From Cohnella faecalis (GTDB taxonomy: Bacteria > Bacillota > Bacilli > Paenibacillales > Paenibacillaceae), in contig NZ_QXJM01000017.1 in the NCBI RefSeq assembly GCF_003570905.1, forward strand, positions 1 to 64,000: 64,000 nt of DNA, read 5' to 3'. Below are positions 34,078-59,255 of this stretch, piece after piece. Each line of letters starts with the position of its first letter. Positions within the stretch are counted from its first letter, which is position 1. The position numbers and the translations under genes were made by a program. The notes beneath the pieces were generated by a model. That model did not search any database and had not been told where the DNA came from. It saw only the letters and a list, made by a program, of their open reading frames with translations.

Positions 34078-37000
34078 TCACTTTTTTAATAGGGAAACAA
34101 TTGATTTTTTTAAATCTTCCATTTCATCCAAAGATATACTGTTGAATGATAAGTCACTTGGTGTTTTTTCCTTATTCTCTACGCTCAAACAATGCTCTAT
34201 CATACTTTGTATATGATGCATGTACCTAACCGTAAAATTGCTGATTGTTACTTTAGAAAATACATTCCTATTGTAAGTTGCCGTCATTCGCAACCGCCCG
34301 TCCAAAACCACACCATGCATATGAATAATTACTTTTCCTTCGATGTTCTCATTCGTAGACAGGCCGATATCAAAAGAGGACGTAGTAAAATGTTCTGTTT
34401 GATTCTCTTGATCAAAATGTACCAGCCTTTGATAGCCAATTTCAGGTCTAATCGTATCCGTCAATGGTGTTGCAAGACTAGGCGTATGCGAGTACCTTAA
34501 TGCCCCATAACCGATTCCCTCATTCGGTATGTGGCGAAGTTGCTCTTTTACCGATTTGATGACGTAAGATAGGCCTTTGCTAGGATCGGTCTCTAAAATG
34601 ATGGGGAATCGATTGGTAAACCATCCCATCGTACGTCTAAGATCTATTTGATCTTTAAAAGAGGATCTCCCATAACCATCCAGTTCGATAACCACATGAT
34701 TACTGTCATTCCATTCATAGATCGCCGTTCCCAATGCCGCTAACAAGATATCATTAGGGTCTGTATTAAATGCATAATGTGTGTTTTTTAGCAGTTCTTC
34801 CGTCTCCTGGTCTGTCAGATCAAAAGATTCGTATCCAATGTCTATGTACGAACTTCCTTCGTTCTCATAGTCTTTGGGCAATTGCTTCAATTCAATTTGT
34901 CCATTATTTTGCCAATACAAAATATCATTCAAAATCTGCTCGCTGTTCGTATAATCTTGCAATAATCTCGCCCAACTTCGATAAGAATCAGTTTTTGCTG
35001 GGAGCTGTATCTTCTCATTGTTCAAAATTTGGTCGTAACTCATGTTCAAGTCTTCTAGCAGGATTCGCCACGATTCTCCGTCGATCACCAAACGAGAAAC
35101 AACAAGTAACAAGTAATCGCCTTGACCAGTTTTAAACAATCCGCCTTTCAATAATGGACCTTCACTTAGATCTAGACTTTCTTCGATTTCATCGATCCGA
35201 GCTTTAATAACTTCATGTATCCGCTCTCCCTGTGATTCTTCGTAGACTTTAAGCTGGAACAACTCTCCTTCCAGTCCTCTGATCCACGAATCGAATTCTC
35301 CACTTGTATTGCTAAAAATCGTTCTTAATACGTCATGGTGAGTCACGATTTGCCCAAGAACCTCTCGGACCGCTACCTCATCAATTCCCTCTGATCGAAA
35401 TAGGATGATTGATTGCGTAGTGGGGTGCTTCTCTATTAATTGATATTCAAAAAACCGACGTTGGTTCGGTGTGAGTCCCACATGACCTTGTACTACTTCT
35501 TGATTAATCATGATAGGATTCTGATAAATATAGGAGCTCAACTCACCAATACACAGATGATGGAATAGGTCTTTGACCTCCATTTTTATTTGATAATTTT
35601 GCATGCGTGTGGAGATCCGTATCGCACTAATAGAATCCCCACCCAGCTCGAAGAAGTTATCCCAGATCCCTACGCGCTGAACACCTAAAACTTCCTTCCA
35701 AATATTTACCAAAATTTCCTCAAGCTTATTTCTCGGCGCCTCATACGCTACTTCGGTTTTAATATTTCCAGGCAGCAGCGGCAATGCCTTTCGATCCAAC
35801 TTACCGTTGGATGTCAATGGCATCCGCTCCATTTGCACAAAAAAGGATGGTATCATATAAACTGGTAAAATCCTCGTTAAATAACTTCTCAATATTTTTG
35901 CACTCAATTGCTCATCAGCAATGAAATAGGCACATAAAATTTTTTTTCCTTCAGCATCCTCGCGAGCAATAACCGAAACTTCCTCGATTGCGTCGTGTGC
36001 AATGAGCGCTGATTCCACTTCACCCAATTCGATACGATAACCGCGAATTTTCACTTGATCATCGACACGACCCAAAAATTCGATGTTCCCGTCTGGCAGC
36101 CAACGCGCTAAATCTCCCGTCTTATATATTCGCTCACCATGATTAAATGGATGGGCAACAAATCTTTCCGCTGTCAATTCCGGCCGGTTCAAGTACCCCC
36201 GCGATAAACCCAAACCAGAAATACATAGTTCTCCTTTAATCCCTATCGGTTGCAATAATTGTTCTGAATTTAAAATATAAATTTGTGTGTTATTTATTGG
36301 CTTTCCAATGGTTATTGATGACGAGCTATTTATCTCCGCAACAGTTGACCATACTGTCGTTTCTGTAGGACCATACATATTAAAGATAAGTAATTTGGGG
36401 AACGACAAAAGTCGTTCCCTAAGCGTTTCTGAAAAAGCCTCGCCGCCTACTAAAACCACTTTAAGATGGGATAGACATGCATCAGCATTGTTATGATTAA
36501 GCAGTAACTGTAATCGCGACGGAGTAGATTGCAGAATGTCCACATTGTGATTTGCAATCAAATTCAGAAGTTTTTCCGGATCATTTTGCTGATGCTCTCC
36601 AGCGATCACGACCTTTAACCCTTGCGTCAATGGCAGCAATGTTTCAAGAACAAAGATATCAAAGGAAATTGTCGTCAATGTTATAACTGTATTGAAAGAT
36701 AAGAACGGAATTCTATCCAACATTCCATGGATAAAATTATGCACGGCCATATGCTCAATCATGACACCTTTGGGTTTCCCCGTTGAACCCGAAGTATAGA
36801 TGACATATATCAAATCTTCAGGATTACTCCTGTTTTCTAGATTCGATTGATCTTCGTCGTATACTCCCCCATCTTCCAGAAAAACGATTTCTCCCATGAA
36901 TCCATCTTGCATGTCTATTAGCTGTTTCTGTGTGATCAACAGACCACTGCAACTGTCGCTCAACATATATTCAATTCGATCGAGCGGGTATTCCGGATCG

Positions 37001-40000
37001 ATCGGCAAATAAGCGCCGCCGGCTTTCAAAATGCCAAAAATCGCGACGAACAGTTCTACAGAACGCTTAACCATGACGCCAACGACCCGATTCGATCCAA
37101 CACCTTTTCTTTTTAAGCCCCGCGCAAGCTGATTCGAAAGTGCGTTCAGTTCCGCATATGTTAATGAACTCGATTCAAATTGGACGGCTACATGATTCGG
37201 CGTCCTCTTCACCTGCTCCTCAAACAAATGAACGATCGACGTTTCGACCACACCGTTCACGATCGTTGTATCGTTGAATGAATGTAGAAGTTGGCTTTTT
37301 TCGTTATCGTCCAACATTTCAATTTCATTCAAATTTTTGTCATTATCACTTGAAATTTCACGCAATAAGTGCACCCAGTGCTTAGCTAATCGTTCTACAG
37401 TTTCCCGTCGGAAAAGCGCGATATCGTATTCAAATTTGAATTCAAGCTCCTTGTTCGTTTCGACCGCAGTTAGCGAGATGTCAAATTTACAAGAGGGATG
37501 CGTAAAATCAAATGGCTGAATAGAGATATTCTGAACTTTCCTTTCGATTGCATTCCGGTTTTGCATCATAAACATCGTATCGAAAAGCGGGTTGCGGTTG
37601 AGATGCCTTTGAAGGTTCAACTTTTCGACCAATTCCATGAATGGATAGTCTTGATTCTCATAAGCTTGCAGGGCGAATTCCTTGACTTCCCGTAAAAACG
37701 CGGAAAATTTCTTATTGCTTTCGGGTCTTGTTCTCATAGCGAGTGTATTCAGGAAGATGCCTAACACCCTGTCCACTTCGGCTTGTTGCCTGCCTGCGAT
37801 TGGTGACCCTATTATGATGTCTTCTTGCCCAGTATATTTGGAGAGCAAAACACTATACCCTGCCAGCAGCAGCATATAGAGGGTTGTTCCTGACTCCAAG
37901 GCTTTTTGGTTTAGTTGGAAAGATAATTCCTTATCTATGGAGATGCTGACTTGGTCCCCTTCAGCTTGTTGCAAGACGAGTCTTGAATAATCTGCCGGAA
38001 TCTCCAGTATCGGCAGTTCTCCGGTGTATGTCTCTAACCAATACTTTTCCTGCTTTTTAATGTTCTCGCTTTGCATGAAATCTTGCTGCCATACAGCGTA
38101 ATCCTTGTACTGAATGGGCAATGGCGGCAACAATCCACCCTCATAAAGCTCGATAAACTCTTCAAGAAGCACATTCATCGATACGCCATCAGTAATGATA
38201 TGGTGGGCATCGCAGATTAATATGTATTCATTTTCTGCAACTTGAACAAGACCCATTCGAAAGAGTGGCGCGCGAGTCAAATCAAACGGTTGGATGAACT
38301 CATGAATGGTCTGCTTAAGCTGTTTCATATCCGACAACGTTTTATGCCATATTTCGAATTCCAAATCAGAATGGATCGTTTGAACAGGCTCATCGTTCAC
38401 AATACCAATCGAAGAACGCAAAATTTCATGCCTTGAAATCAGAGTTCCAATCACTTCTTTAACGCGGTCTATATTTAAAGATCCCTTAATTTGCGCACAG
38501 ATGGTTTCATTGTAGCGGGTACTTTCCTGTTCGAATTTATGTAGAATGAACATTCTTTTTTGCTGCACAGATAACGGATAATGATTGCTTGAAGGAGCAT
38601 TTTTTATCGACGAATAACGATGGGTTCGGAAGTGCTGAAAAGAATCGGACAACGCCATGATCGTTGGATTGCGAAAAATTTCCCGAAGCGGAATCTCGAT
38701 GTCCAGCTCTTTACGAATGCGTGACATCAGTTGAGTCGCCTTCAAAGAATGACCGCCAAGTTCGTAAAAATTGTCCGTGATTCCGACTCGACTAACTCCC
38801 AAAACATGCCTCCAGATTTCAACCAGTTTTAATTCCAATTCATTTCGGGGGCCGTGTTGTCAATTCGAAGCGGAATATATTCCCGATGAGAAGGCAACGC
38901 CTTTCGATCGATTTTTCCGTTAGGAGTTTTAGGTAATGCGTCAAGCCTGATAAAAAAAGCAGGCACCATATAGGCCGGCAATGAAAACATGAGATGTTCT
39001 TTTACTTCAGAGCTTTCGACGTTTCTTTTTGAAACAATAAAGGCACAAAGCTGCATTGATCCATCTAAATCCTCAGTCGCCACAACCACCGCTTCTGAAA
39101 TCTCGGGATGATGAAGCAGCCTGGATTCGATTTCACCCAGTTCAACTCGATAACCGCGTACTTTTACTTGATAGTCTTTACGTGAAAGAAATCGGATATT
39201 GCCATCGGGAAGCCAGCAGGCTAAATCACCCGTTCTATAAATCTTTCCACCTTCATCGAAAGGAGAGTCGATAAACCTTTCGCGCGTCAATTCCTCTCTA
39301 TTCCAATAGCCCTGTGCGACGCCTTTTCCGCCAATATAAATTTCACCCGCTACCCCGACGGGCACCACCCTCAGCCGAGAATCGAGAATATAGATTTTCG
39401 TGTTAGCAATCGGAGTGCCGATGAGTACGCTTGGACTTTCCTTGCGAATGGTGTATGTTGTCGACCAAATCGTAGTTTCAGTCGGTCCGTACATATTGAT
39501 AACTCGCGCATCTATATTAAGGTTAAGATCATCTGCCAATCGCTCGCTGAATGCTTCCCCTCCAACAAGCAGTGTTTTTAGTGAGCCCAAAAACTTTCTC
39601 GACGTCGGATCATTGTACATCATTTGGATTTGTGAAGGTGTACCTTGCATGATGGTAATCGGTTTGATTTTTGCGGAATCGTCTTTGCTGCTCTTCGATT
39701 TACTGGAAAGATCATTTTTCATATCCGCCAATCGAACGAGACTTCCCATAACGGAATCTTTATCAAGACCAAAATCGATCAGACATGCAAATTCGTTTAC
39801 CCCTATGCGGGCCAATTCATTTGCGGTTACCGTGCAAGATTCTTTTGTCCCTAAAAACGCAGAGGTAAACCAATATTTTTCGAAAGCCAACTCGACCAAC
39901 TCGTCCATGACTAAAGGAGAATTGAGTCCCGCTTCCTCCATATTGACGCCCACGTTCAACGCCAAGTTGCGAATCAACCCAACGCTTGATTTCAAATACT

Positions 40001-42857
40001 CACAAAAGGATGGCTTTACTTTGCGCTTGACTTCTTCTAAGTCATCGCCAATAAAGGCATGCACCATCAACGTTACCTTACCCGACTCGGGATCAAATCC
40101 GTTTTCTTGCAGGGACTGACGGTATGATCGGATATTTTCCGCTAACACATGACGATCTTGCCCCAGCAAATGCGTTAAAATGTTCGCACCAACTTTGCCG
40201 GCTTTCACGAAAGACTCCTTTGAACCGCCCGTAGTAATCCAAATTGGCAATTCTTTTTGGACTGGTCTCGGGAATGTCTTGATTTCTACCATTTTCCCCA
40301 GGCCGTTCGTTTGCTGTATGGATTTACCGCTCCACAAACTCTTCACATTTTCGATGCAATCGTACATAAAATCTACGCGATCATTATAATGTTCGGGTGC
40401 TAACACAAAATCATCCGCATGCCATCCCGGCGCGAAGGAGAGTCCGACACGTCCGTTGGACAGATTATCGACTACTGACCACTCCTCTACTATTCGGATC
40501 GGATGATGTAAAGGTGCAACCACGCTCCCAGCGCGGATCTGAATTTGGCTAGTTACAGTAGACAACGCCGATGAAACGATTGACGGATTCGGGAACAATC
40601 CTCCAAATTCATGAAAATGCCTTTCAGGAATCCAAACGGCTTTAAAATTCTTTTCGTCAGCAAAGCGGGTTGACTCCATCAATAAATCATATTTGTTTTG
40701 CTCATCGTCATTATAGCTGGAAAAGAAAAACAGGCTAAAATCCACATCAAGAGGCTGATGACTGAGATAACGATCGAACTGATCGTTGTTTGCATCGGAA
40801 GAATCGTGAACGACGACTGGAATTCCGCGAGATAATGTCCAAAGAAGCTCCAAAACGGAAATGTCAAAAGAAATCGTCGTAACGGACAAGAAACAATCAT
40901 CATTGTCAAACGGCACTTTCTGATCCATTCCAAAGAAGAAATTCACAACGTTACTATGTGTGACCATAACTCCTTTGGGATTTCCCGTGGAACCGGAAGT
41001 ATAAATGACATAAGCCAAATCGTTACTGCTTCTATTATTTCGAACTGGAAGTTGGGAAACTCCCGTCATGCTTTCTATCTTTTGATCTAATAGAATCAGG
41101 TTCGTAGTGGCGCACTTTTCCAAATAGCGAGAAGTAGTAATCAATGTTTTTATTTTGCTGTCTTCAATAATGTACCGTATACGATCAACAGGAAATGCGG
41201 GATCGATCGGCACGTATGCAGCGCCCGATTTGAGTATTCCGAGCAGTGTCACGACCATTGAAACCGATCGATCCAACATCACGCCGATCAAATCCCCAGG
41301 CTGGATTCGGTATTTGGAAACCAGTAAAGAAGCCAATTGATTGGCTTGTACATTTAATTGCTCATAAGATAAATCAACATGACCGCTTCTAACAGCAGTC
41401 ATGTGAGGTGTTTTCTCCGTTTGTTCCTCGATAAATTCATGAATAAGTTTATCATCGTGTTGATCGGCATCCGTTCGATTAAATTCCGTCAACAGTTGAT
41501 GCTTTTCCTCTTGAGACAACATCTCTAATTCATGAACAGACGCGTTGGGTTGCCTCAGTATATTTTCAATCAGGTGGATGTAATGGCTCATAACTTGATT
41601 CATCGAAGAAGGGGAAATCAAATTCTCATCATAAGTTAATTTGATCACAATGTTTCCAAAGGTAGTAAGGGTCAGCACAATATCATAATTCGTCATTTCG
41701 AACATGGTATAGGCGTCGATCCCGATTTTACCATTACCGCTATTTAAACCATCGTTTAATGGATAGTTTTCCACAACCACTATGGAGTCGAATAATACAC
41801 TGTTTTGACTGAGTTTGGTGTTGTTCTTGATTTCTACTAACGAAGAGCCGGACCAGGCATCCCGGTCATGGACATCTTTTAATATTTTTTGAAGAATATC
41901 GGTTACTTTTTCATCTTGTCCCGTTTTTACGCGAAGAGGCAGCGTATTAATAAACAAGCCCACGATTTGTTCGATACCTTCAATTTTGACATTCCTTCCC
42001 GAAACCGTAGTACCAAAAACAACATCTTCCGAATCATTGTACTTTTGCAGCAATAAACCCCATGCGACATAGAACAAAGTCGCCAAAGTTACCCTCTGTT
42101 CCTTGACAAAACGAAGAATACGCGAAGTGAAATCTTCATCGCATGTATATTCAAGATTGCCAATCTTTGGCCGATGGTCGTCACCTTTCTTCGGTTCGAA
42201 CGGCAACAAGGTATTCGCATCGAAATCTTGAAAATACTTGGACCAGTAAACATTTTCAAGATGTTTATCCTGATTGTGAATCCAATTTATATAACTTTTA
42301 TAACCACTTTTGGTCCTCTTTGCTTCTCCTTTGTTTCCGGCAAAGATGTCATTGTATGCATCTACGAATTCTTTTAACAATATGCCATAACTCCAACCGT
42401 CAAACAGAATATGATGGCTTGTCATGATCATCTCATAAGATTGCTCAGTAACTTTGCAAACCAATACTCTCATGGGATGAATGGCAATATCGATTTTTTT
42501 CTTGCGATCCTTCATTTTAATCTTTTCGATTTCGGCCTTGGATTCCTCGTCAGACAAATGAGTAAAATCGAAAAAAGTTATCTTCATTTTTTTTTCTTTT
42601 AGTAAAATCTGCACTGGTCGATCAAGCTTTTCCCATCGGAACACGGATCTTAACACATCATTATTTTCAACGACAACATCCCAAGCCTGTACCAATACAT
42701 GATCCTTTAAATCCCCGGACATAGATAAACTTAATTGCTCCAAATACATTTCCGAGCTGGAGTCTTCTAAATAATAAAACAATAATCCTTCTTGAAGCGG
42801 CGTCAACGGAAGAATATCACTCACGTTTTCACGATCTATTTTTTTCTCTCGCGACAT
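34078..42857 (-). CDS. NRPS gene C: C-A[Gly, monooxygenase inserted]-T-C-A[Gly]-T-E
   Basis: The start ATG at 42857 follows AAGGAGA. The gene is split by one lost C near 38850: adding a base joins NTAP to RNELELKLVEIW and makes the length 8781 bases, a whole number of codons. Module 3: C (HHILFDGWS near 150), then A with TSGSTG near 624. A3 is interrupted at about 693-1060 by a luciferase-like flavin monooxygenase (GRVGLSFAPGWHADDF, PIWITTGGSKESF). NMYGPTE follows near 1122 and T near 1367. Module 4: C (HHIITDGVS), A, T (GGDS near 2406), E. Both A codes are glycine type, DILQLGMIW and DILQLGMVW (compare DILQLGLIW). The E domain reads SRLVIDGESW where HHxxxDG is expected, so it is probably dead, which fits achiral glycine. 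The inserted domain resembles the natural-product luciferase-like family (TIGR04020) and most likely hydroxylates the tethered glycine. Confidence 0.9.
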
Positions 42858-42945: not shown

Positions 42946-44205
42946 TCAAACAAGTAATCCTTCAATATACTGTATGATCTCGTCTGCTGCTCTCTTTGCA
43001 CCACCAGCAGATTTCATGGACTCTCCAATGATTCTACTCTTCATTCTGTAGGTCTTATCATGAAATAATCGCTCGACTGCCAATTGAAGCTCAAGATAGT
43101 TGACCGATTCGTTCGAAGATGAGTTTTTGAGGTTGATCCCCGCTCCAAGTCTTTCTACTTGATTGGCAACCAGAAACTGATCCACTTTCAAAGGAAAAAC
43201 GAGAAGAGGCAAATGATGAAATAAACCCTCATTGACACTGTTGAAGCCACCATGGGTAATAAAAATATCTATATGTTTAAGGAGTTCTATTTGTGGGACA
43301 TAGTCTTTCACAATGAAATTGTCCGGAACATCTTCGGATCGAAGGGATAAATTCGTTTGGTTGCCGCTTGAAATGATCACTTGCATATCTGAATTGCAAA
43401 ATGCATGAAAGCAGGCTTTCCAAAATCCGACATCATCACCTGATATCGTACCGAGCGAAATAAAGATGTTCTTTTTCCCTGCAAGTGTCTCAAACGGAAA
43501 AACAGAATTCTCCGTTCGAAAATCAAAAGAGGGACCCACAAACTTAAAAGTGTTGTCAAACAGTTCCGAATGAATCTGAAAAAGTTCTGAGGTATATACG
43601 ATATTAAGGGGTTCTCTATTTATAAATACATCAAATAAGCGAAATTGATCTAACTTGTATTTTTTTTCGATGGTAGTTCTGAACCTATCCAATTGTCTCT
43701 TCATGGATGTCTTATTGAAATTTTCTAAAGTCATTGCAAAAAGACTTTTTGCAACGTTTTCGGGATCCAAGTTGATAATTTCATCATCAAATGCAAAAGT
43801 GGTAATAGAGGATACTGCGGGCACATTCAGCAATTTTGCAATTCTTTTACCCCATCCACAAAATGAATCATGAATAATACAGTCGGGTTTTAAACTGGCT
43901 GATTCAATAAGTAATTCAGCCGTCATCATCTCAGTCATGTCCAATTGATGCAAAACTTTTTTTGCAAAACCGCTGAAAGGATTTTGGGGGTCTTTCCCTC
44001 TCCTTTCCTCGTTGACAGTTACATCTTCATCGATAATTCCAACTGGATACTCCCGGTAATTCGCACCTGTATTTTCGATTTCACCCTTGAACTGATTTAT
44101 AGCATAATATTCAACCTTATGGCCCCTGCTGGTTAATTCCGCAACTAAACCAAGCGTTGGGTTTATATGACCTGTGTAAGGAAACGAGAAGAAAACGATA
44201 TTCAT
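42946..44205 (-). CDS. MGT/UGT-family glycosyltransferase
   Basis: This 419-residue protein starts MNIVFFSFPYTGHINP, the typical beginning of macrolide-type GT1 glycosyltransferases. ATG 44205 has AGGAG ten bases upstream; the longer open frame beginning at 44388 has no such site and overlaps the preceding gene. The C-terminal half has ISLGTISG and the nucleotide-sugar motif ITHGGFNSVNEGLFHHLPLL with PLKVDQFLVANQVE, so an NDP-sugar donor is expected. It is cytosolic. Its place between a carbamoyltransferase and an NRPS gene suggests that it attaches a sugar to the peptide, perhaps at a Tyr or Thr hydroxyl (inference). No sugar-biosynthesis genes are visible, so a common UDP-sugar is plausible. 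It lies 88 bases upstream of NRPS gene C and 80 bases downstream of the carbamoyltransferase. Confidence 0.88.
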   Translation of the reverse strand: MNIVFFSFPYTGHINPTLGLVAELTSRGHKVEYYAINQFKGEIENTGANYREYPVGIIDEDVTVNEERRGKDPQNPFSGFAKKVLHQLDMTEMMTAELLIESASLKPDCIIHDSFCGWGKRIAKLLNVPAVSSITTFAFDDEIINLDPENVAKSLFAMTLENFNKTSMKRQLDRFRTTIEKKYKLDQFRLFDVFINREPLNIVYTSELFQIHSELFDNTFKFVGPSFDFRTENSVFPFETLAGKKNIFISLGTISGDDVGFWKACFHAFCNSDMQVIISSGNQTNLSLRSEDVPDNFIVKDYVPQIELLKHIDIFITHGGFNSVNEGLFHHLPLLVFPLKVDQFLVANQVERLGAGINLKNSSSNESVNYLELQLAVERLFHDKTYRMKSRIIGESMKSAGGAKRAADEIIQYIEGLLV

Positions 44206-44285
44206 ATTCAAGTGGCTCCTTTCATTCAGGGGCTGAGAATTCACCCAAGCAATTGGGGCTGAAAAGCCGATATGTCTGTTGGTTT

Positions 44286-46267
44286 CTACGCAGGATATAA
44301 TACGATTAATCTTCTCGACCATAATTCCTGTATTTCTTCTACAAGCTCCTCGTTCGTTACGTCGCAAGGTGAAATCTCTTGCAAACATGAATGTAAGGTT
44401 CTCTTTCCGTCGCTTAGAAGCAAAATACGATAAAGTTCAGAAGATAGGGGGATTGTATATTTATCACTATAAACGACACCAATTTCATGGAAAATGCTTT
44501 CCGATTTTTCAGAGACATGTCGTTTTGATTGTGTGATGGTTGCATATGGCGACAGTGAAATCCTCATTGGCAAAAACCGTTTTGCATCAGCCTCTATTTT
44601 AGAAATCAAAAAATCCCCTATGACAAGGAAATGTATCTTGGTGGTCAAAAAACAAATGATCGCATCATACACGGAGTCCACGATCGGTTCGACATTATTA
44701 TTAAACGAAGTGTTCAGTAAGATTGGAGTATCTGTCAGCTCCTTAAATGCGTGAATCAACCCCCAATATTTGGGGTTAGTGTGACGATTAACCGTCTGAA
44801 CTCTTGCTGACCCGTCTACATGGGTAACCGCTCCGAGCAGCGTTCGCTTTTCTTCCTTAACTCTAAGAACGATTATCATGTGAGGGAACATATTTTGCCC
44901 GGGCGGAATTTCATAAAATTGAGGCGCATATTCTTCAAGCACGGAGGGAGCAAACGGTCGATAGCCCTCTCTGAGCTTTACCATTGCGTTAATGACCTCC
45001 CGATTTTCTGGTGGCCTAGGATCTGCCAGAATGCTTCGATTACCTAATGCTCTTGGACCGAATTCCGACCGGCCTTGCACCCAGCCTATCACCTTGCCTT
45101 CGGAAAGCAAGGTTGCCGTCTTCTTCTCAATATGATCTTCCTTCTTGAATTCCAACCAGCTGCTCCACTCCTTGAGGGTTTTCTCTATCGCTTCCGGTTC
45201 GCCGATATCGCTCCCCCAGTAAAGGTGTTCCAGCTTATTCGTTTTCTCTTGCGGAACAACGCTATCATGTATATAAAGCGCTGCTCCCAATGCACACCCA
45301 GCATCATGCGCAGCCGGCTGCACGAACAGTTCTTCAAATAGATTCGAATATAAAATTTTTCCGTTTAATGTACAATTTTGTGCAACTCCCCCTGCCAAAC
45401 ACAATTTTTGATGACCTGACTTCTGCTTAAAATAATTTAAGATATGGGAAACGATTACCTCAAGGGACTCTTGCAGAGAAGCCGCAACGTCTTTATGTAC
45501 TTGAGCAAAAGGCTCCGATTTCTTTCTCGGAGACAATATATTTGACAGATAATAAATATTTTCAAAATGTATTTCATATTGACCCTCTGGCAGCAAAGTG
45601 TAGAATTTTTTGAAAAACCGCCGATATCTGCGTGGATCCCCATAAGGCGCGAGACCCATTACTTTGTATTCGTCAAACATCTCATAACCAAGAAAACGAA
45701 TGACTTCTTTGTAATAAAAACCAAGTGAGTTGGAATCCGAATAGGATTGCAGCAACTCAAGACGATTGGCATTACCACTCCAAACCGTACCGGAGATACC
45801 TTCACCTGTCCCATCAATGGTCAAAACTAAACTGCTGTTAAAACCTGATAGAGAATACGCACTAACTGCATGTGACAAATGATGATCAACAAAAACGATC
45901 TTTCCTAATTCGAATAAATACTGAAATTCTTCGAAAATCAACCTTTGAATATAAGATTTGATGTCCCGGTCCATGTTTTTTGTTCAGGATGGTAGAGTTT
46001 ATCTAGCTTTATATTTACATTCAAACTGCTTTCACTGATGGATATCGCTATGTAATCGATGTCGCGAATGGAATAATTACCATAATTCAAACAAAAGCGG
46101 ATTGCAGAAATAGGGATTTTACCAGTATGTTTAACTCTCGTTAGCCGTTCTTCTTCTATTCCTGCGACTACTCGTCCATCTACGAGCAATACAGCCGCAG
46201 CATCGTGCCCTCTTGTGGCGGGATCATCAAACTTCTCAGACCATCCATTTATCCCTATTATCTTCAT
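44286..46267 (-). CDS. Carbamoyltransferase, NodU/CmcH family (one frameshift)
   Basis: The family transfers a carbamoyl group from carbamoyl phosphate, via carbamoyl-adenylate, to a hydroxyl, often on a sugar or antibiotic. The N-terminus reads MKIIGINGWSEKFDDPAT and GHDAAAVLLVDGRVVAGIEEER. Further on come DHHLSHAVSAY, IDGTGEG, VMGLAPYGDP, CLAGGVAQNCTLNGK and GRSEFGPRALGNRSILADPR, all family hallmarks. Two frames (46267-45938 and 45974-44286) overlap at an A run near 45977. One added A joins EQK to NMDRDIKSYIQR and gives 661 codons. The last 85 or so residues (VVYSDKYTIPLSSELYRILLL to the end) go beyond the usual catalytic unit and look like a small PqqD-like or winged domain. The start overlaps the peptidase stop by four bases (ATGA), so translation is coupled. 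It probably decorates the sugar or a side-chain hydroxyl. Confidence 0.9.
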
Positions 46268-47838
46268 ATTCTATCCTCCCAGGAACTAACCGAACTAATC
46301 TCATTCAATTTTCGTTTGACCTTAAAGATATATCTCAACCAAAAATACACAAAGCTCAAATTGATTAAACTGTAAATTAAAATTAAAGCCGCATAAATGC
46401 TGTATGGCGCCCAAACGATTACAAAACGCCACGGTAATTTCCTGAATAATAGATCGGGTAATGAGTAGAACAAAAGGGAAAAAGCAGAAATATAGAAGAA
46501 AAGAATGGCTGTGCTTATATAGAACCGGGAATTAAACCCGCTGAAAAACCTTTGCTTCGTTGCCATTCTATACAGCATGCGGGCCAAAAGGAACAATACG
46601 AGCATAGCAATCGGTGAAACAATATAGGTAACCATCGAATAAGTTTTATCCAAACCTACATAATAATCATTTTCGATCATAGGCGCCTGTTCAGGAAACC
46701 CGCCATGAATGATCGCATCAATGACTTTTCCCAGCGGATCCGTAAACGTTGATAGGGAATTGGACAATACCACAATTCCTAACCGTTCCTCTGGATGCAA
46801 GACTATAAACGACGAGAAAGACGGAGTGCTTCCATTATGAAATAAAACCGCTCCATTCCCCGCAATATTCCATCCCATGCCATATTGAAGATCTTTAGAT
46901 AACTTCGGCGAATTCTGAGACTCTTTTATGAATTTGTACAGTGGCTGCGAGTTGTCTGTTTCCAATTGAATCTTTAACCAATGATCCATATCATGGAGAT
47001 TAGAAACCATATTCGAACTTGGTGCATTTCCGCGATAATATGGCGGGTCAAAAGCCATTGGTTTATTGAAGCCGAACTTGTAACCCTGAGCCTTCAGGTG
47101 TTTCTTGGTTTTATCAATGAAAAAGTAGGTGTTATCCAATTCGAGGGGATTAAGTATATATTCTTTCATATAATCTTCATAAGATTGTCCGGATACCGTC
47201 TGAATAATCAATCCCAGAATAGCGTAATTAATCGTCGCATATTCGAAGACTTCACCCGGAGCGAACTTTAATTCATGATTCGTAAGCTTTCTCACTGTAA
47301 TTTCCAAAGATTTGTTATCGGAAGAAACCGGTATATCTCCAATACTTTCAAATGGGATACCGCTCGTATGATGCAACAGTTGTTCAATTGTGATATTCGC
47401 AATCTGGCCTGAATATTTCATTTTGAGCCATGGAATATATTTTTGAACCGGGTCCGTAAGATCAATGAGTCCTTTATCTGAAAGCTGCATTACCGCGATT
47501 GCTGTAAACGCCTTTGTATTTGAACCAATCTCAAATAATGTGTCGTCCGTGACAGGGATTTTTTTTTCTAAATTTGCGAACCCATAAGATTTCTGGTAAA
47601 CCGTTTTATTGTTCATCACGATGGACAATGCAAGGCCTGGCGCATGGTTTCTCTTCATTTCATCTCTCACCAAGCGGTCAATCTTTTGGATCTTTTCATC
47701 CGCAAGTCCATACTGGGATAGCTCTTCACCTGACGCAACCGTTGAGGTTAGGATCGTCCATGTCAACAGAACCGTACCGATCAGAAATTTCTTTAAACTC
47801 CTTTTTTTCTTGGCATGACTTACCTTATTCTTAATCAC
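46264..47838 (-). CDS. Membrane serine peptidase, beta-lactamase/S12 family, ClbP-like architecture
   Basis: This 524-residue protein starts at GTG 47838, seven bases after AAGGAGG. The N-terminal basic run and hydrophobic stretch (residues 18-37) form a signal peptide or anchor. The S12 domain shows the SxxK motif as SNTK in EIGSNTKAFTAIAV, a tyrosine motif in FEYATINYAILG, and HNG in FHNGSTPSFSSF. After about residue 385 come three or four membrane helices (IVSPIAMLVLFLLARML, STAILFFYISAFSLLFYSL, YSIYAALILIYSLINLSFVY). An extracellular S12 domain followed by membrane helices is the layout of ClbP and its relatives (colibactin, zwittermicin and amicoumacin clusters), which cut an N-acylated N-terminal unit from an exported prodrug. 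Inside an NRPS operon with a lipid-type starter C domain this is the best guess. The alternative is a general penicillin-binding-like or resistance enzyme. Confidence 0.82.
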   Translation of the reverse strand: MIKNKVSHAKKKRSLKKFLIGTVLLTWTILTSTVASGEELSQYGLADEKIQKIDRLVRDEMKRNHAPGLALSIVMNNKTVYQKSYGFANLEKKIPVTDDTLFEIGSNTKAFTAIAVMQLSDKGLIDLTDPVQKYIPWLKMKYSGQIANITIEQLLHHTSGIPFESIGDIPVSSDNKSLEITVRKLTNHELKFAPGEVFEYATINYAILGLIIQTVSGQSYEDYMKEYILNPLELDNTYFFIDKTKKHLKAQGYKFGFNKPMAFDPPYYRGNAPSSNMVSNLHDMDHWLKIQLETDNSQPLYKFIKESQNSPKLSKDLQYGMGWNIAGNGAVLFHNGSTPSFSSFIVLHPEERLGIVVLSNSLSTFTDPLGKVIDAIIHGGFPEQAPMIENDYYVGLDKTYSMVTYIVSPIAMLVLFLLARMLYRMATKQRFFSGFNSRFYISTAILFFYISAFSLLFYSLPDLLFRKLPWRFVIVWAPYSIYAALILIYSLINLSFVYFWLRYIFKVKRKLNEISSVSSWEDRI

Positions 47839-47903: not shown

Positions 47904-50540
47904 TCACTTCATTTCCCTTATCGAATTAGCCAATTCTCTAATCGTAGGAGAATCAAAAACTTTCCATAAAGGAATCTGAACATTTAATTTCTTTTGAATT
48001 TGGTTAACAAGCGTAGTAGCTTTCAAAGAATGTCCACCCAGTTGTACGAAATTATCGTTTACTCCTACGCGGCTAATCCCTAATACCTCCCCATAAATTT
48101 CAGCCAGCATTGATTCCAGCTCATCACCGGGGGCTTCGTACTCGCAGTCCGATTCCACTCCTCCCTCCGGCACCGGAAGCGCCTTCCGATCCAGTTTTCC
48201 GTTTGATGTCACGGGCATCTGATCAACCTGTAGGAAATACGAAGGAATCATGTACCCTGGCAATAGATCGGTCAGATACCTTCTCAGCACGAACGAACTG
48301 ATCCGGTCTTCCGAGACAAAATAAGCGCAAAGATGTTTGGTTCCCGTTTGGTCCTCTCGATCGATAACAACCGCTGATTGGATGGAAGGGAATTTTGCCA
48401 ATTGAATTTGAATTTCGCCCAGTTCAATCCGATAACCGCGTATTTTCACTTGATGATCTACTCTACCCAAAAATTCCATGTTGCCGTCAGGCAGCCAGCG
48501 GGCCAGATCTCCGGTATCGTAAATGCGTTGATTTTCAATAAACGGATTTGCCTTGAATTTGGCGTTTGTCAATTCGGGATCGCCGATATAGCCGGATGCT
48601 AGACATACTCCTCCGATATACAATTTCCCCGGAACGCCTATCGGACTAGGTTGGAATTGATCGCCGAGAATATAGTATTGGGCGTTTTGAATCGGTTTGC
48701 CATAAGGGATGCTCGTCCAACGAGCATCCATACTGTCTATGGGAAAATAGTTGGACCAAATTGTCGCTTCCGTCGCTCCGCCTAAACTAATTACTCGGGC
48801 ATGAGGAAAAATCGCTTTTACGGTCCCGGGCACTGTCATAGGAATCCAGTCTCCGCTTAAGAACACGAGCCTCAAACTCGGACCGGTCCTGTCTTCCAAA
48901 GAATAACTCAACACTTGCTGCAAAGCCGCCGGCGCCGAGTCCCAGAATGTGATCGACTCCGTGCACAAAGCTTCAAACATGGCGTAGGGGTTCGCGAGTT
49001 CTTCATTCGTTGCAATCCGAATGGATCCGCCCGCAGCCAAAATACCGAAAATGTCATACACGGAAAGGTCAAAACTAAGGGAAGTGATGAAAAATAATCG
49101 GTCTTTTTCGGAAACTTCGAAAGTATGGTTGACCCATTCGATTAAATTGACGATCGGCCCGTGTTCCACAAGTACTCCCTTAGGCTCACCTGTTGATCCG
49201 GATGTGAAAATGACATACGCATACGGATGGCGAGATAACTCGACTTGCAAATCCTCGTCGGAATACGCGATTAATTGGTCATTTGTACAAAGCGACACAC
49301 AATTGTCGACAGCCTCGCAGATTGGATTGCTATACAAGCTCACCTGAAGAACACAATCGAGTTCCGGTAGTTCGTGAGAGATTTGTTTGATCCACCCATT
49401 CTGACTGTTGCCGATGAGCACATGACGAATGCCTAACCTTAGAAAAATACGATTCGTTCTGCTCAAAGGCGCGCTTTCATCCACTGGTACATAGATTCCA
49501 CCGGCCTTCAAAATCGCCAACAACGAGATGATCATTTCAAAAGATCGATCCATGGATATTGCCACGAAAGATCCTTCCGTTACGCCCAAGTGCCTTAACT
49601 TTCCGGCTAATTGGTTAGATTTCCTATTCAATTCCGCATAGGTGATACTCGTATCGCTGTCCATGAGCAAGGCAACTCGGTTTGGCGACATCCGGACGGA
49701 ATCCTCGAACAGCTGATGGACTTTTTTGTGAGCTGAGTACTCGACCCTAGTATCGTTGAAATCGAACAGGAGCTGCTTTTTCTCTTCGACGGACAGAATC
49801 TCAATGTCGGATAACGGCTGCTCCGGCGTGTCGATGGCTGCATTTAGAAAATTTGCGAAGTGGGAAACGAAACGTTTCATCGAATCTGCGGCATACAAAT
49901 TCGCGTTAAAATGGATCGTTAGGCCGATGTCGCTTCCTTCTTTGAAAAAACAAAACACTTGGTTCAGTGGAACTTCATCATCCAAAAACGATTGATCGTG
50001 CAAGGATTCCATGACGACGGCGGTATGGTAAAACTCCGGCTTCGCCTCATTCTCATTCGGATATAACGTTCGCCAAATGTGATCCAGTGGAAAACGTTGG
50101 TTATTCCCAGCTTCTGCCAACGTGTTTTGGACTTCCTTCAGCCAATGTCTAAAATCCGGCGAATCGCCTGCATTGCATCTCAAGGGTAGCAATCGGTTGA
50201 TAGGCACGTCCGGCTCTGGGATTTGCGGTTTCAAAACGGCAGTACCCGTCACGACATATCGGCTTCCAGTATATCGATGCAGGACATACATTACGGCAGA
50301 TAACATTACGATATAGGCTCCGAGGTCCGAATGATTGCTTAACTTGTTGATTTTCGAAGTCAGCTCGTATGGCATGAAGGAAGTCACGCTTCCCTTTTGA
50401 TAATCCGAATATTTTCCCAGCGGATAATCTGGAGGCATTTCAGTTTTGGTGGTTTCATCCTTCAGCTTGGATAACCAATACTCCTTCTCTTCATCCAACT
50501 CTCCGCTGGAAAGCAGGACGTTTACCGCATATTGATCCAG
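47904..50540 (-). CDS. NRPS gene B: half condensation domain-A-T (module 2)
   Basis: The frame follows gene A by about 20 bases. A strong AGGAGG (50549-50554) sits eight bases before a CTG at 50540, which I take as the start. The alternative TTG at 50579 lies inside gene A. The protein begins at the middle of a condensation domain (EEKEYWLSKLKDE onward). The N-terminal lobe with HHxxxDG is absent and is not encoded just upstream. Then come A (TSGSTGEPKG; FDLSVYDIF, FWDSAPAAL, FLSGDWIP, LGGATEATIW) with code DLYDFSLIW, close to the Cys code DLYNLSLIW but changed at two positions, and T ([10 protein letters not shown] near the end). With no catalytic histidines its C half-domain should be unable to form a bond. 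The residue may be joined by another enzyme, or the protein may serve as an A-T donor in trans. It is followed 65 bases later by the peptidase. Confidence 0.82.
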   Translation of the reverse strand: MDQYAVNVLLSSGELDEEKEYWLSKLKDETTKTEMPPDYPLGKYSDYQKGSVTSFMPYELTSKINKLSNHSDLGAYIVMLSAVMYVLHRYTGSRYVVTGTAVLKPQIPEPDVPINRLLPLRCNAGDSPDFRHWLKEVQNTLAEAGNNQRFPLDHIWRTLYPNENEAKPEFYHTAVVMESLHDQSFLDDEVPLNQVFCFFKEGSDIGLTIHFNANLYAADSMKRFVSHFANFLNAAIDTPEQPLSDIEILSVEEKKQLLFDFNDTRVEYSAHKKVHQLFEDSVRMSPNRVALLMDSDTSITYAELNRKSNQLAGKLRHLGVTEGSFVAISMDRSFEMIISLLAILKAGGIYVPVDESAPLSRTNRIFLRLGIRHVLIGNSQNGWIKQISHELPELDCVLQVSLYSNPICEAVDNCVSLCTNDQLIAYSDEDLQVELSRHPYAYVIFTSGSTGEPKGVLVEHGPIVNLIEWVNHTFEVSEKDRLFFITSLSFDLSVYDIFGILAAGGSIRIATNEELANPYAMFEALCTESITFWDSAPAALQQVLSYSLEDRTGPSLRLVFLSGDWIPMTVPGTVKAIFPHARVISLGGATEATIWSNYFPIDSMDARWTSIPYGKPIQNAQYYILGDQFQPSPIGVPGKLYIGGVCLASGYIGDPELTNAKFKANPFIENQRIYDTGDLARWLPDGNMEFLGRVDHQVKIRGYRIELGEIQIQLAKFPSIQSAVVIDREDQTGTKHLCAYFVSEDRISSFVLRRYLTDLLPGYMIPSYFLQVDQMPVTSNGKLDRKALPVPEGGVESDCEYEAPGDELESMLAEIYGEVLGISRVGVNDNFVQLGGHSLKATTLVNQIQKKLNVQIPLWKVFDSPTIRELANSIREMK

Positions 50541-50548
50541 GACGAAAA

Positions 50549-50554
50549 CCTCCT
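50549..50554 (-). promoter_or_regulatory. Strong ribosome binding site of NRPS gene B
   Basis: AGGAGG lies directly after the stop of gene A and eight bases before an in-frame CTG, with no ATG or GTG at the right distance. It supports a CTG start at 50540, which is rare. Otherwise it points to a base error in the start codon. Confidence 0.55.
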
Positions 50555-50559
50555 CTCTA

Positions 50560-53500
50560 TTACTCGAATAACAAATCAAGATCGCTTTGGCTTATCTTCA
50601 TCATTTTGAAATCGGAAGGTGTAAACTCCGAAGTTTTCTTCATGGCACAATGAAGTATAATTTTTTTCATGTTACGTACCAGCACTTCTACCCATTCGTT
50701 TACGGCAAAATCGGCAAGCTCAGCGGGGTTATAATGCACGTCGAGCTGTAAGGTTCGATGGCGAAATACGAACCTGAAATCAAGGAAACGCGGATGAGAA
50801 TTTTCGAAACCCTCTTCGAACCTCATGAGGGTGAATATATCGTTTTCGAATATCGCGTCCAAGTCCCCTCCGTAACGAAACCCGACCAATCGTCGGTTTG
50901 GTTCCTCAAACTGTTCCAGCCGTTCCTGCAATCCCCCGAGGCTTTGACCGTCTTTCAGCACACCTCTAATCTGTTCTTTGACTTCCTTTATCTGGTCATG
51001 AAGGTCTGTTGAATGGACTTGAAATACGGCAGGGTAGATAGGAGCCAAGCAGCCGATCCCGCTGACCTCATCTTCGGTTACGCTCCCCCCTCTTTCTCCG
51101 AGATCGATTTCAACCCCAAATGCAAGAGGACTTAACCGTTCATGCATGGTCAAGACCAACGCGATGATAAGCAATTCTGCCGTTCTCGTATGGTAGGCAT
51201 GATTGGCTTCAAGGAGTTCGTTTGCATCAATTCCTAACGAATCATAGGTTCGTTTACCGGATCCTTGATTTCCATTCGCAGGTTGGAGGTCTATTGAACG
51301 AGGGGCAGCCAACCGTGCGGCTTCTCCGTTCAGATGTAAGCGAAGCATCGTTGAAAGATCTTTCGACAAGATGCCCCACGAATCGAGATCCATGACCAAA
51401 CGGTGAGCCGACAGCATCAGATGAGCAATCTGTCCGTCTTCACCCGCAAACATGCAAGCTTGAACCACATTTCCTCTATCGAGAACGAGGCTCGATGTTG
51501 ACCTCACTCTGGCTTCCTCCATGATTTTCGAAAGCTCTGCCAACCCGTAGTCGGACAAGGTTATCAAATCGATTTCCGGTTCAAGCGGCGGCTGTGAGTT
51601 ATCCAAATAGAAATCTCCCGTATCATCATCTAGCCGAATTCGAAATAATTGATGATGCCGTATGATCTCGAGAAGGATCCTTTTCAATTCCGATCCCTCT
51701 ATCGGAACTTGTAACTGCAAGAATACCGATTGGTGACGTTGATTGATGTAGGGCAACCCCCGGGCCATCAGCCATTCCATCGCAGGAGTCTTTTTCACGA
51801 TTCCACTGAATTGCGATTGGACGAACGACATGTCCGCGTGTTTGACGCTTGATACGATATCGGAAATCGAATTCGAATATATGATGTCCTTCGTTTCCAG
51901 CAGAATGCCGCTTCCGTGCAACCGATTGATGAGAATTAGCGCTTTGATCGAGTCTCCGCCGAGTTCGAAGAAATTGCGGTCCGGGTAAATATTCGATAAA
52001 TTCAGCAGTTCCTGAATCTCAGTCATTACCGTTTGTTCTGTCCTTGAGGTTGATATGTAATCTGATGTCGTTTTGATCTCCCGGCCGATCGGTTCGGGCA
52101 ACGCTTTTCGATCGATTTTTCCATTCGGAGTAAGAGGGATAGCATCCATTTTCATAAAGCTAGTCGGAATCATGTAAACAGGCAACACTTCGCTGAGATT
52201 TGCCCGAAGCTCGTTATAGCTCAGTTGTCTATCCGCGCTATAGTAAGCGCATAAATACGTACTTTCATTTTGGGTAACAAGAAGAACTGCCGCTTCCCGT
52301 ATCGCCTCTATATCTAACAATCGCGCTTCGATTTCTTGTGTTTCGATCCGGTATCCATGGAACTTGATCTGCTGATCCATTCTCCCTAAGTACTCTATAT
52401 TCCCATCAGGGAGCCACTTTACAAAATCGCCCGTCTTGTACATCCGCTCGCCGGACACGAATGGGTCGTTCACGAACCGCTCTTGCGTCAATTCCGGCCG
52501 ATTTAGATATCCTTCGGCTAAACCGGCCCCACCAATGCATAATTCCCGGGAGTTCCAATCGGTATAAGCCGATTCCCGTTATCCACAATATAAACTCGCG
52601 TGTTGACTAATGGCGAACCGATATGGATGCAGGCACCGTCATTTTCCGTTAATTCGCCCATCGTACACCATACAGTTGCCTCTGTCGGCCCATACATGTT
52701 GAATATTCTGGCATTCGTCGTTTTTTTAAGCTTCTGAAGCAATGGAAGAGGGAATGCTTCTCCGCCGACCAAGAGAACCTTTATTTTGGATAAGGCAGAA
52801 ACCAAATGAACATCGTTGATCATGATATTTAATCGGGATGGCGTCGTTTGCATCAAATCGATATCGTTCAATTCGATAAGTTGAGACAATTCATATAAAT
52901 GGTCCCTTTGCTCATCGCTGACCAACACAATCTTCAATCCGCAAGCGAGGGGAAGCAACGACTCCAAAACAAAGATATCGAACGATATCGTCGTTAACGA
53001 CAAAATCGAGCGGAATTTTTGAAGAGGAATGCGCTGCGTTACGCCGGCGAAAAAATGATATATAGCTTTGTGACTGACCATGACTCCTTTTGGTTTCCCA
53101 GTGGACCCGGAAGTGTAGATCAGATACGCCAAATCGTCTGGTTTGCCGCATGTGTTATTCGGATTCGTATCCTCTTCCATTCCCGTGACAGCCGTTTGAC
53201 GAATAAGAAGTTGTTCAACATTGTCGAGCTTTCTGCCAAGATGAGGCTCTGTGATCAATAAACATGCCTTGCTGTCAGCAAGCATAAATGCGATTCTGTC
53301 CTCGGGAAAATCGGGGTCGATCGGAAGGTAGGCACCTCCGGCTTTAGATATGGCCAATAAACTTGCGATCAAATCAATAGACCTTTCCATCATGACCGCT
53401 ACGATCGTGTTCGAAGAAACTCCCTTACCGCGCAACAAGCTGCTCCATCGGTTCGCCTTCTCGTCAAGCTGCCGATACGTGATCGTCTCGTTGCCGCAAA

Positions 53501-54937
53501 TAACGGCAATTCGTTCGGGCGTCCGCATCGCCTGTTCTTCGAAAAGCGAAGAAAATTTCTTATATTGCGGAATATCCGCGGTGTTCGACATAAATTGCTG
53601 CAAGAGAAGCATGGTTTCTTCAGGTGTCACGACATTCAGTTCGCCTATCGGGACGGAAGGATAGGTTACGATTTGATCCACGAGCGCTTCCAAGCAACCG
53701 AATATTCCGCTTACTTGCCGGGCGGTGTAATCCTTTACCTTGTATTCGAAATCCAATCGCAAGCTTCCGGATTCATACCAATCCTTGATGAGCAAATGAA
53801 GCGAATAGATCGAATGACCCTGGAAAAATTCCTCGTTCTCGATCGTAATCCCTCAAGCTGGTCAACCAACTTGGCGTTGCTATAATTCACGCATATTTGA
53901 AACAATTGGTCGTAGCCTTTTCTATGCAATTCCAGGTCTTTGACCAACAAATCGAAAGGATATTTCTGATGGAAAAAGCACTGAATCAACTCTCTGTTCA
54001 CTTGATCGAATAATGCGATAGTGTCTTCGTTTTCGCGAATCTGTTTTCGGAAAGGCATCATATTGACAAACATTCCGAAAATATTTTTTTCACGTTTTCC
54101 CGACCGGTTCAAGACCGGTGTGCCTACGATAAGATCTTCGTTGTGCGTCGTCCTGAACAGGTAAATGAGCATGATCGTCATAAAGAACGAATTCATGGAC
54201 AAGTTATGTCTCTTAATAAATTGTTTGACAAGTTGCGTCTTGGCTTCATCCAAAAAGAATGTCATTCTCTCCGCCCGAATATCATCCGAGCTTTTCACAA
54301 GGAAAGCGTCAGGCAGCTCAAGAAACTTTTCTCTCCAGAACGTCTTATCCTTATGAAATCTGTCTTTCGTCTGTAGTTCCTTCTCTGCCGGAATATAGGC
54401 TTCAAAAGAATATTCGCCAAGAGAGTCGGGCTCCGAATGGTCGATAAGGCGACCGTACATCTCGCACACTTGACTGGTGAGGATATTCATCGACCAGCCG
54501 TCCGCGATCAAATGATGAAATTTGACGAAATACCCGCACGTATTGGGATTAAGCCTGAATAAAGCTATATAGAAGAGGGGGCTTTCAATCAGTTCAAATC
54601 CTATGGATACTTGCTCTGCCACCCATTCCTTGTACCTGGATAACGGGTCGATGGCGAAACTGAAATCGACATACTCGATTTCGGGTGTATCATCCTTGGA
54701 GAAATATTGCTGAACTTGGCCCTCGACTTCCACGAATTTCAATCGTAGGGAGTCATTATTGGAGATAAATCGTATAAGAGCCTGTTCAAGGCGTTTGAGA
54801 TCCGTATGTCCCTTGAACGTAATCGTCCCACCTAGATTAAACAGCGGGGTCTTGGGATACAGCTTTTCGATATACCAAATCCTGTTTTGGGCATGTGTAA
54901 GAGGGTAATAACGTTGTTGTTGGTCCGGTTTCATCAT
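50560..54937 (-). CDS. NRPS gene A: starter C-A[Gly]-T-E (module 1, two frameshifts)
   Basis: The ATG at 54937 follows GGGGGT. The frame breaks near 53850 and near 52552 (CCCGGGG to CCCGGG). Two added bases restore 4380 bases, a whole number of codons (about 1459 residues). The N-terminal YYPLTHAQNRIWYIEKLYP resembles the starter condensation domains of surfactin-type synthetases, which attach a fatty acyl chain; HHLIADGWS is near 142. A has TSGSTG near 609 and code DILQLGMVW, a glycine signature (FDIFVLESL, LMQTTPSRL, LLVGGEAF, NMYGPTEATVW). T (ELGGDS) is near 994. E covers about 1070-1459 and reads AHRLVMDLDSW: the second, catalytic histidine of HHxxxDG is Arg and the Gly is Leu, so it should be inactive. 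The expected first step is N-acylation of Gly1. The gene starts five bases after the DUF98 stop. Confidence 0.87.
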
Positions 54938-54941
54938 TCGA

Positions 54942-55466
54942 TTACCCCCGTATGGCGAATGTGTCTTCCACAGGTAAATAGTCGGGATGAAACGATTCAT
55001 GAATATAAAAGATCGGTTCCCGGGATAGTTCGAGCAAATAGTGTTTAAAATAGCAAACTCGTTTGCGGCCGTCGATTTCCTGTTCGATCCGTCCGTCGCC
55101 GATAAGGTGCCGGTGATGTTCGATCCGATTGTTCGCGATCTGTTTTCCCAACGGAATGTCTCTCGTGCACAAAGTTTCGTACAAGTTTTCCTGACCGAGA
55201 GGTACGCGCATTACCAAGTAATTAAAAGATACTTTAATACGTTCGTCTGTTTGTAATGCAGATCGCCTAATATAGAGCCTGTCCGTCGACTCCGTCTGCA
55301 AATGCGCCAAAATATCGGGATGAATTTCCTCGCGCGATGCCAAGTATTGGCCTGTAACCTCGACGGTGAGTTTCCTGTCGAGAAGACTTTCCAGCAACAA
55401 GGTGGTTGATCCGTCGCTGCGCAGCAGCATACGGACTACGGCTCCGTCAGTTGACGTTCGCAACAT
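54942..55466 (-). CDS. DUF98 / chorismate pyruvate-lyase-like protein
   Basis: This 174-residue protein starts at ATG 55466, seven bases after AAAGGAG and 20 bases inside the end of the ABC transporter gene. The pattern (RMLLRSDGSTTLLLESLLDR near the start, IPLGKQIANNRIEHHRHL in the middle, then a C-terminal beta region) matches the chorismate lyase-like family PF01947, whose members release pyruvate from chorismate to give 4-hydroxybenzoate. The match is by recollection of the family pattern and is moderate. If right, the cluster could make a hydroxybenzoate building block. No aryl-activating enzyme is visible in the window, so its use is unknown. It sits five bases before NRPS gene A, which makes a role in the starter unit attractive. 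Confidence 0.6.
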   Translation of the reverse strand: MLRTSTDGAVVRMLLRSDGSTTLLLESLLDRKLTVEVTGQYLASREEIHPDILAHLQTESTDRLYIRRSALQTDERIKVSFNYLVMRVPLGQENLYETLCTRDIPLGKQIANNRIEHHRHLIGDGRIEQEIDGRKRVCYFKHYLLELSREPIFYIHESFHPDYLPVEDTFAIRG

Positions 55467-59101: not shown

Positions 59102-59255
59102 GAATTCTCCCTTCGTAAATATTCGAAATGGCAGGGCAATAGTTTCTTTATGAAACATTCGGATGTTGATTTACCGCACCCGAACGTAATCGCTTTGCTA
59201 CAGGTTCGACGGGTAGTTCACCGACTTCCTGGCGGATTCTTCGATTAATCGGGTA

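Follow-up and report, generated by a model that had tools for sequence, protein, structure and literature searches.

Glycine-activating adenylation (A) domains that are interrupted by a flavin monooxygenase have been described in the nonribosomal peptide synthetases (NRPSs) of myxothiazol and melithiazol, in proteins that we take to be MtaG and MelG. In the excerpts of PMC10204066 and PMC11342130 used here, these domains are reported to oxidize the alpha carbon of glycine. For solanimycin B, the former source describes an internal alpha-hydroxyglycine, read from mass spectrometry, and assigns it to the embedded monooxygenase domain of SolF (PMC10204066). On the grounds of sequence and product structure, the 2-hydroxyl that a carrier-bound acyl chain bears at the position alpha to its thioester was attributed to PuwE (PMC4219810). 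In the survey of PMC12283262, every monooxygenase module lies in a glycine domain, and the code DILQLGMIWK is identical in all four of its monooxygenase-bearing glycine A domains. In the current study, we characterized gene C of Cohnella faecalis, an open frame of 1342 amino acids (aa) at 38829-42857 on the minus strand of contig NZ_QXJM01000017.1, positions 1 to 64,000 (this whole stretch of 64,000 nucleotides is referred to as the window). Gene C carries a monooxygenase inside the A domain of NRPS module 3, an arrangement that belongs to a widespread and already described kind. We estimate at roughly 0.55 the probability that the glycine of this module (Gly-3) would be alpha-hydroxylated while on the assembly line and then passed on within the chain as a backbone hemiaminal.

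An earlier, sequence-only reading of the window had placed a luciferase-like insert at 39675-40780 and named a TIGR04020 profile search of gene C residues 693-1060 as its check. That profile (NCBIfam; FMN-dependent luciferase-like monooxygenases of the MupA/Atu3671 family, curated cut-off 244.45 bits) matched residues 706-1045 with 467.7 bits over profile positions 1-340 of 341, which corresponds to 39723-40742 and lies inside the proposed span. Pfam placed Bac_luciferase on residues 707-950 (E 4e-38), within the order Condensation (12-455), AMP-binding in two stretches (best 476-690), Bac_luciferase and AMP-binding_C (1241-1314). Fourteen TIGR04020 matches were found genome-wide, and only the gene C insert exceeded the cut-off. 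The motif residues that are invariant among relatives (PERHF..FG, GS.V, E.W...D and GW...DF) are all retained in it. Judging by family profile, motif conservation and the modeled barrel described below, the insert is predicted to be a monooxygenase dependent on flavin mononucleotide (FMN). A chance origin of the nesting is excluded by an E value of 2e-140 together with the same nesting at 66 places in other loci. The parts of module 3 and the start of module 4 are as follows, in order of transcription, with C standing for condensation and T for thiolation.

41493-42824, minus strand: C domain of module 3 (gene C residues 12-455; PF00668, 307.5 bits; HHILFDG motif in the translation)
40788-41432, minus strand: first part of the A domain (gene C residues 476-690), with the motifs up to a4 FDISVLELL (PF00501, two stretches; code by alignment)
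39723-40742, minus strand: inserted luciferase-like monooxygenase, predicted to depend on FMN (TIGR04020; gene C residues 706-1045; NCBIfam, 467.7 bits; AlphaFold2 model compared with 6ket_A)
38916-39704, minus strand: second part of the A domain (gene C residues 1052-1314), a5 NMYGPTE through the C-terminal subdomain
38644-38829, minus strand: T domain of module 3, in the open reading frame (ORF) 34078-38838 past a frame break (PF00550, residues 3-64; sequence around the break)
37285-38589, minus strand: C domain of module 4, straight after the module-3 T domain (PF00668, residues 83-517; architecture)

Both the insertion site, between the A-domain motifs a4 (FDISVLELL) and a5 (NMYGPTE), and the nine-residue code of the module-3 A domain, DILQLGMIW, were re-derived, by script and by alignment, respectively, and agree with the sequence-only reading. 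The code is of glycine type, and glycine is accordingly the residue that the domain would be expected to activate. In an AlphaFold2 model (mean pLDDT, the predicted local distance difference test score, of 88), the luciferase-like barrel is nested in an A fold that is predicted to be intact, and model and motif alignment together indicate a complete A fold and core motifs in spite of the insert. The A10 lysine (PNGK) is invariant across a 47-row alignment that includes the window. The nearest solved relative by sequence is PuwE (6KET, 377.8 bits); its structure 6ket_A and the modeled barrel superpose with a root-mean-square deviation of 2.1 Å over 347 alignment columns (TMt 0.92, 48% identity).

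In the scheme that we propose, module 3 would be a C-A-T module in which the A domain, interrupted by the luciferase-like monooxygenase, activates glycine and loads it onto the T domain. Judging by the chemistry of the family, the inserted barrel would use reduced FMN and O2 to add a hydroxyl to the alpha carbon of glycine while this is thioester-bound, as a glycyl or a peptidyl-glycyl unit. The next C domain would then transfer the chain, now ending in alpha-hydroxyglycine, to module 4, so that the peptide backbone would contain an N-acyl hemiaminal. Alpha-hydroxylation of carrier-bound glycine, also the choice of the sequence-only reading, is by analogy the best inference as to the chemistry, because oxidation at the position alpha to a carrier-bound thioester is what has been reported or proposed for this family. 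Module 3 is internal, its T domain being followed by the C domain of module 4 with neither an epimerization (E) nor a thioesterase (TE) domain after it. That much of the earlier description of an internal third module holds, and the position as third rests on a reading order across several frame-broken ORFs. Base 1 of the window is base 1 of its contig (65170 bases), and the NRPS line reaches this edge. Since module 3 has no TE after it and the line runs on as far as the contig edge, retention of the hydroxyglycine is favored; deliberate cleavage at Gly-3, which had also been suggested, is disfavored because further modules follow and no TE does.

Relatives were collected by a scan of genome contigs, from which the best 80 of 479 stretches encoding a relative gave 79 loci, a sample biased toward the best-scoring ones. 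Seven further Bacilli regions brought the number to 86, among which the domain of L115 is that of L033, and L116 nearly duplicates L010. These loci contain 91 such domains, comprising 66 nested as A-insert-A (in 65 loci), 15 that adjoin a T or A domain but are not nested, 6 that stand alone and 4 of other kinds. A glycine-type code (pattern DI[LQ]x[LMIV]G, near copies kept) was present in 64 of the 68 insert-joined A domains with a full code, the window included, compared with 12 of the 123 remaining A domains in these loci; an incomplete code had led to the removal of 74 of 265 A-domain entries, 5 of the 73 insert-bearing ones among them. Together with the survey in PMC12283262, these counts indicate that glycine plus monooxygenase is a recurrent, known pairing.

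The nested modules were read as internal in 54 cases and as terminal in 8, with 4 unread. Twenty of the 66 are internal within one protein (8 with E and 12 with C after T). In a further 34, T closes the protein, and the following NRPS or polyketide synthase (PKS) ORF starts with a C domain (9) or a ketosynthase (25), a placement that assumes gene order and between whose ORFs other genes may intervene, as in L019 and L023. Among the terminal modules, a TE was recognized by profile in four, and the other four were read from the length of a tail of 284-411 aa after T. Hence, the idea that the window shows a new placement for this chemistry fails, because internal placement is the rule for most sampled relatives and SolF is a published internal case in which the hydroxyglycine is retained (PMC10204066). 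In a domain tree built by a quick method and rooted at the midpoint, the window's domain falls within a 26-row set of Bacillota and Bacteroidota (support 99 in the Shimodaira-Hasegawa-like approximate likelihood ratio test, SH-aLRT) that holds zero modules read as terminal; placement is unread for L024 and L028 of this set, and L035 is not nested. All eight terminal modules, from Streptomyces, two myxobacteria and Actinophytocola, fall outside it. Of 37 genomes from the same genus, two had an insert match at E <= 1e-60, namely that of the window itself and G035, which has two copies, at 53% and 43%, without the flanking a4/a5 motifs. In same-class genomes, with five candidates scored per genome, 18 of 398 had a match, own genome included. 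As the nested copy occurs only in the window's own genome among the 37 of its genus, no comparative evidence bears on the product.

Two further features of the relatives were observed. Ketosynthase-first next ORFs accompany 25 of the 66 nested modules (L012, L013, L023, L058, L071 and 20 other loci, from several phyla), and therefore, in such lines, chain extension from the hydroxyglycyl unit may fall to a PKS; Pfam confirmed ketosynthase, acyltransferase and ketoreductase domains on the next proteins of L013, L023, L058 and L071. In L059 (Roseivirga), two successive proteins each contain a monooxygenase-interrupted glycine module.

The remaining genes of the cluster are listed below in order of transcription.

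47904-55000, minus strand: modules 1 and 2, split over four ORFs; A1 code DILQLGMVW (glycine type), A2 code DLYDFSLIW
46264-47838, minus strand: serine beta-lactamase-like hydrolase between the NRPS genes (PF00144, E 5.7e-73)
44286-45974, minus strand: NodU-type carbamoyltransferase, its N-terminal part absent from the frame (PF16861; PF02543 from profile position 125)
42946-44388, minus strand: MGT-family glycosyltransferase adjoining gene C (TIGR01426, 304.8 bits, cut-off 260)
34078-38838, minus strand: NRPS ORF T3-C4-A4-T4-E4; A4 code DILQLGMVW (glycine type)
1-34050, minus strand: more NRPS modules with frame breaks, up to the contig start

Transcription begins with ABC transporters (55447-59158) and a chorismate-lyase-like gene (54942-55466; PF01947, 27.1 bits, cut-off 22) just before module 1, and runs through modules 1 and 2, the hydrolase, the carbamoyltransferase, the glycosyltransferase, gene C and module 4 with its E domain to the further modules. 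Given the chorismate-lyase-like gene, the peptide might start with a 4-hydroxybenzoyl-type aryl cap instead of a fatty acid; in the earlier description of the product as a lipo-glycopeptide, an aryl cap would fit equally well as the lipid, and the "glyco-" part is plausible from the glycosyltransferase gene. The carbamoyltransferase and glycosyltransferase genes both stand directly upstream of gene C. At E <= 1e-8, relatives of the carbamoyltransferase were found near two of the other loci (L043 and L050) and relatives of the hydrolase near five (L010, L041, L067, L114 and L116); no glycosyltransferase relative was found in the other 86 loci, whose stretches reach about 10 kb on each side at most. 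In L050, an acidobacterial contig, the carbamoyltransferase (7413-9236) is 43% identical to that of the window and lies directly upstream of the nested module. The hydrolase was under the cut-off for every one of the 25 NCBIfam families shown. Beta-lactamase-like serine hydrolases beside interrupted-glycine NRPS genes recur in Bacilli (window 46264-47838, L010 13639-15240, L114 14738-16231).

Several points weigh against a hydroxyglycine that is formed and kept at Gly-3. Gene C stops after its A domain, and the T domain of module 3 lies in a different frame, in ORF 34078-38838, beyond a frame break near 38.85 kb at a short C run. The insert differs from the other 46 rows at 13 columns in which these are at least 85% constant, including, in the barrel, S950 for P and F1001 for L (columns constant in 46/46) and K994 for R (45/46), and its end branch in the domain tree is long (0.59 vs. 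a median of 0.27). Moreover, hydroxylation in solanimycin is only partial, and acyclic hydroxyglycine is prone to spontaneous cleavage (PMC10204066). As to the frame, multiple NRPS ORFs of the window are broken in like manner, and decay of the cluster was considered as a cause. It was set aside given a fragmented rpoB vs. an intact gyrA in the same assembly. Since rpoB, a gene unable to decay, lies here in pieces in several frames, the breaks in the NRPS ORFs are probably for the most part assembly error, an explanation that is supported rather than proven because it draws on two genes only and rpoB sits at a contig end, the start of C8. Across contigs C8, C16, C30 and C34, the genome shows the frame-broken rpoB and three gyrA matches above the cut-off, two of them with equal score and length; these signal assembly errors, perhaps duplicated contigs.

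The same departures at otherwise constant columns and long end branch, along with the frame breaks within the cluster, would also be expected if the inserted domain were eroded or inactive and module 3 merely incorporated glycine. We regard this as decidedly unlikely, given that the frame is open through all 1342 aa of gene C, that the invariant motif residues are kept, and that the broken rpoB makes the breaks look like assembly error. Somewhat easier to entertain, though still unlikely, is an outcome resembling that of myxothiazol and melithiazol, in which the hydroxyglycine collapses, during synthesis or after release, into two pieces, an N-terminal one bearing a C-terminal amide and a glyoxylyl one. 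The insertion site and glycine specificity are as reported for those domains (PMC10204066, PMC11342130), and acyclic hydroxyglycine is labile (PMC10204066). However, collapse on the line would waste all later modules, which reach the contig edge; module 3 lacks a following TE; and most related modules are internal (54/66), with no terminal one in the window's 26-row set (two unread).

Oxidation at nitrogen has a precedent in necroxime, where the oxime on a glycine primer was attributed to an oxygenase domain together with dehydratase (DH) and methyltransferase (MT) domains (PMC7318616); in module 3 such a flavin domain would yield N-hydroxyglycine, a backbone hydroxamate, or an oxime. The necroxime glycine is a starter, whereas module 3 is internal, and C-alpha oxidation was assigned both to PuwE, the nearest solved relative (PMC4219810), and to the monooxygenase-glycine cases in PMC10204066 and PMC11342130, which makes N-oxidation quite improbable, although the necroxime precedent keeps it a serious competitor. 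Finally, the hydroxyglycine could be capped by the neighboring glycosyltransferase or carbamoyltransferase to a stable N,O-acetal, in keeping with the position of both genes directly upstream of gene C and with the carbamoyltransferase relative that immediately precedes the nested module in L050. Such groups more commonly go onto hydroxylated side chains or an aryl cap, MGT enzymes also act in self-protection, and no relative of the glycosyltransferase (E <= 1e-8) was found within the 10 kb or so, at most, on either side of the other loci, so that such capping appears very improbable. The corresponding structure, in which the alpha-hydroxyl of Gly-3 is the attachment point for a sugar, a carbamoyl group or both, is a most improbable one; if true, the capped N,O-acetal would be a stabilized, triggerable break point, removal of the cap releasing amide and glyoxylyl pieces.

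Nothing was drawn from E domains. A T-E arrangement follows the insert in eight nested modules (L009, L010, L020, L022, L037, L110, L112 and L116, with L010 and L116 near copies), and an E domain was considered as a sign of a chiral glycine. This idea was dropped because uninterrupted glycine modules also carry E: an E motif follows T in at least 11 of the 30 loci with the best-matching relatives of module 4's A domain, which has no insert. These E-bearing control loci all have a DILQ code, the window's own copy included, and several nearly duplicate one another within giant NRPS proteins; over all 30 relatives the code is DILQ in 24 and otherwise DIVQ, DIIQ or DIAQ. Among non-interrupted glycine-code modules of the loci whose next domain lies in the same protein, E occurs in 3 of 7 (two of the three being near copies). 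Module 4 itself (34078-38838) combines the glycine-type code DILQLGMVW with a terminal E domain. Relatives within its family show this combination again, several of them in NRPS proteins of 8,000-14,000 aa. A further idea, that L010 (Brevibacillus laterosporus) might be the source of spergualin, a compound containing alpha-hydroxyglycine, was not supported; its module is C-A(luciferase-like monooxygenase)-T-E among NRPS genes, no PKS domains were found around it in 21 kb, and none of the paper titles listed named a spergualin gene cluster.

If Gly-3 is hydroxylated and retained as we propose, a long multimodular NRPS of a Paenibacillaceae-like genome joins the small set expected to put alpha-hydroxyglycine inside a peptide. 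In our sample, terminal modules, the chain-cleaving use familiar above all from myxothiazol, are a minority (8 of 66 terminal vs. 54 internal), and the interesting question becomes what preserves or uses an internal hemiaminal. What keeps such a hydroxyglycine from falling apart becomes testable in relatives such as Paenibacillus tyrfis MSt1 and B. laterosporus. The loci of these two species (L009 and L010) were the two best matches of the scan, with inserts 58% and 54% identical to that of gene C, and are likewise nested between a4 and a5 and internal; they differ in having an E domain after T and no glycosyltransferase relative in the surrounding stretch. The OX domain of PuwE (6KET) is homologous to the gene C insert, but it follows a PKS module and an aminotransferase instead of lying within an A domain, and it was assigned a fatty acyl chain (PMC4219810). 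The crz-like clusters of Serratia and Pseudomonas share a monooxygenase (MOx) domain inside a glycine A domain (A2), but form short, Corallorazine-type lines for which truncated linear products are proposed (PMC11342130). With myxothiazol and melithiazol, gene C shares a flavin monooxygenase that interrupts a glycine A domain between a4 and a5; compared by description, their chain ends as an amide (PMC10204066, PMC11342130), whereas the module of gene C is internal and followed by C. Because a C domain and more modules come after T, and not a terminal TE, we did not file it as an MtaG-type release module. The monooxygenase-bearing glycine A domains of PMC12283262 have a specificity code identical to that of gene C, but such inserts are generally placed there between A8 and A9. 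SolF of solanimycin, also compared by description, has its insertion between a8 and a9 as opposed to a4 and a5, yet it shares with gene C an internal glycine module with an embedded flavin monooxygenase (PMC10204066).

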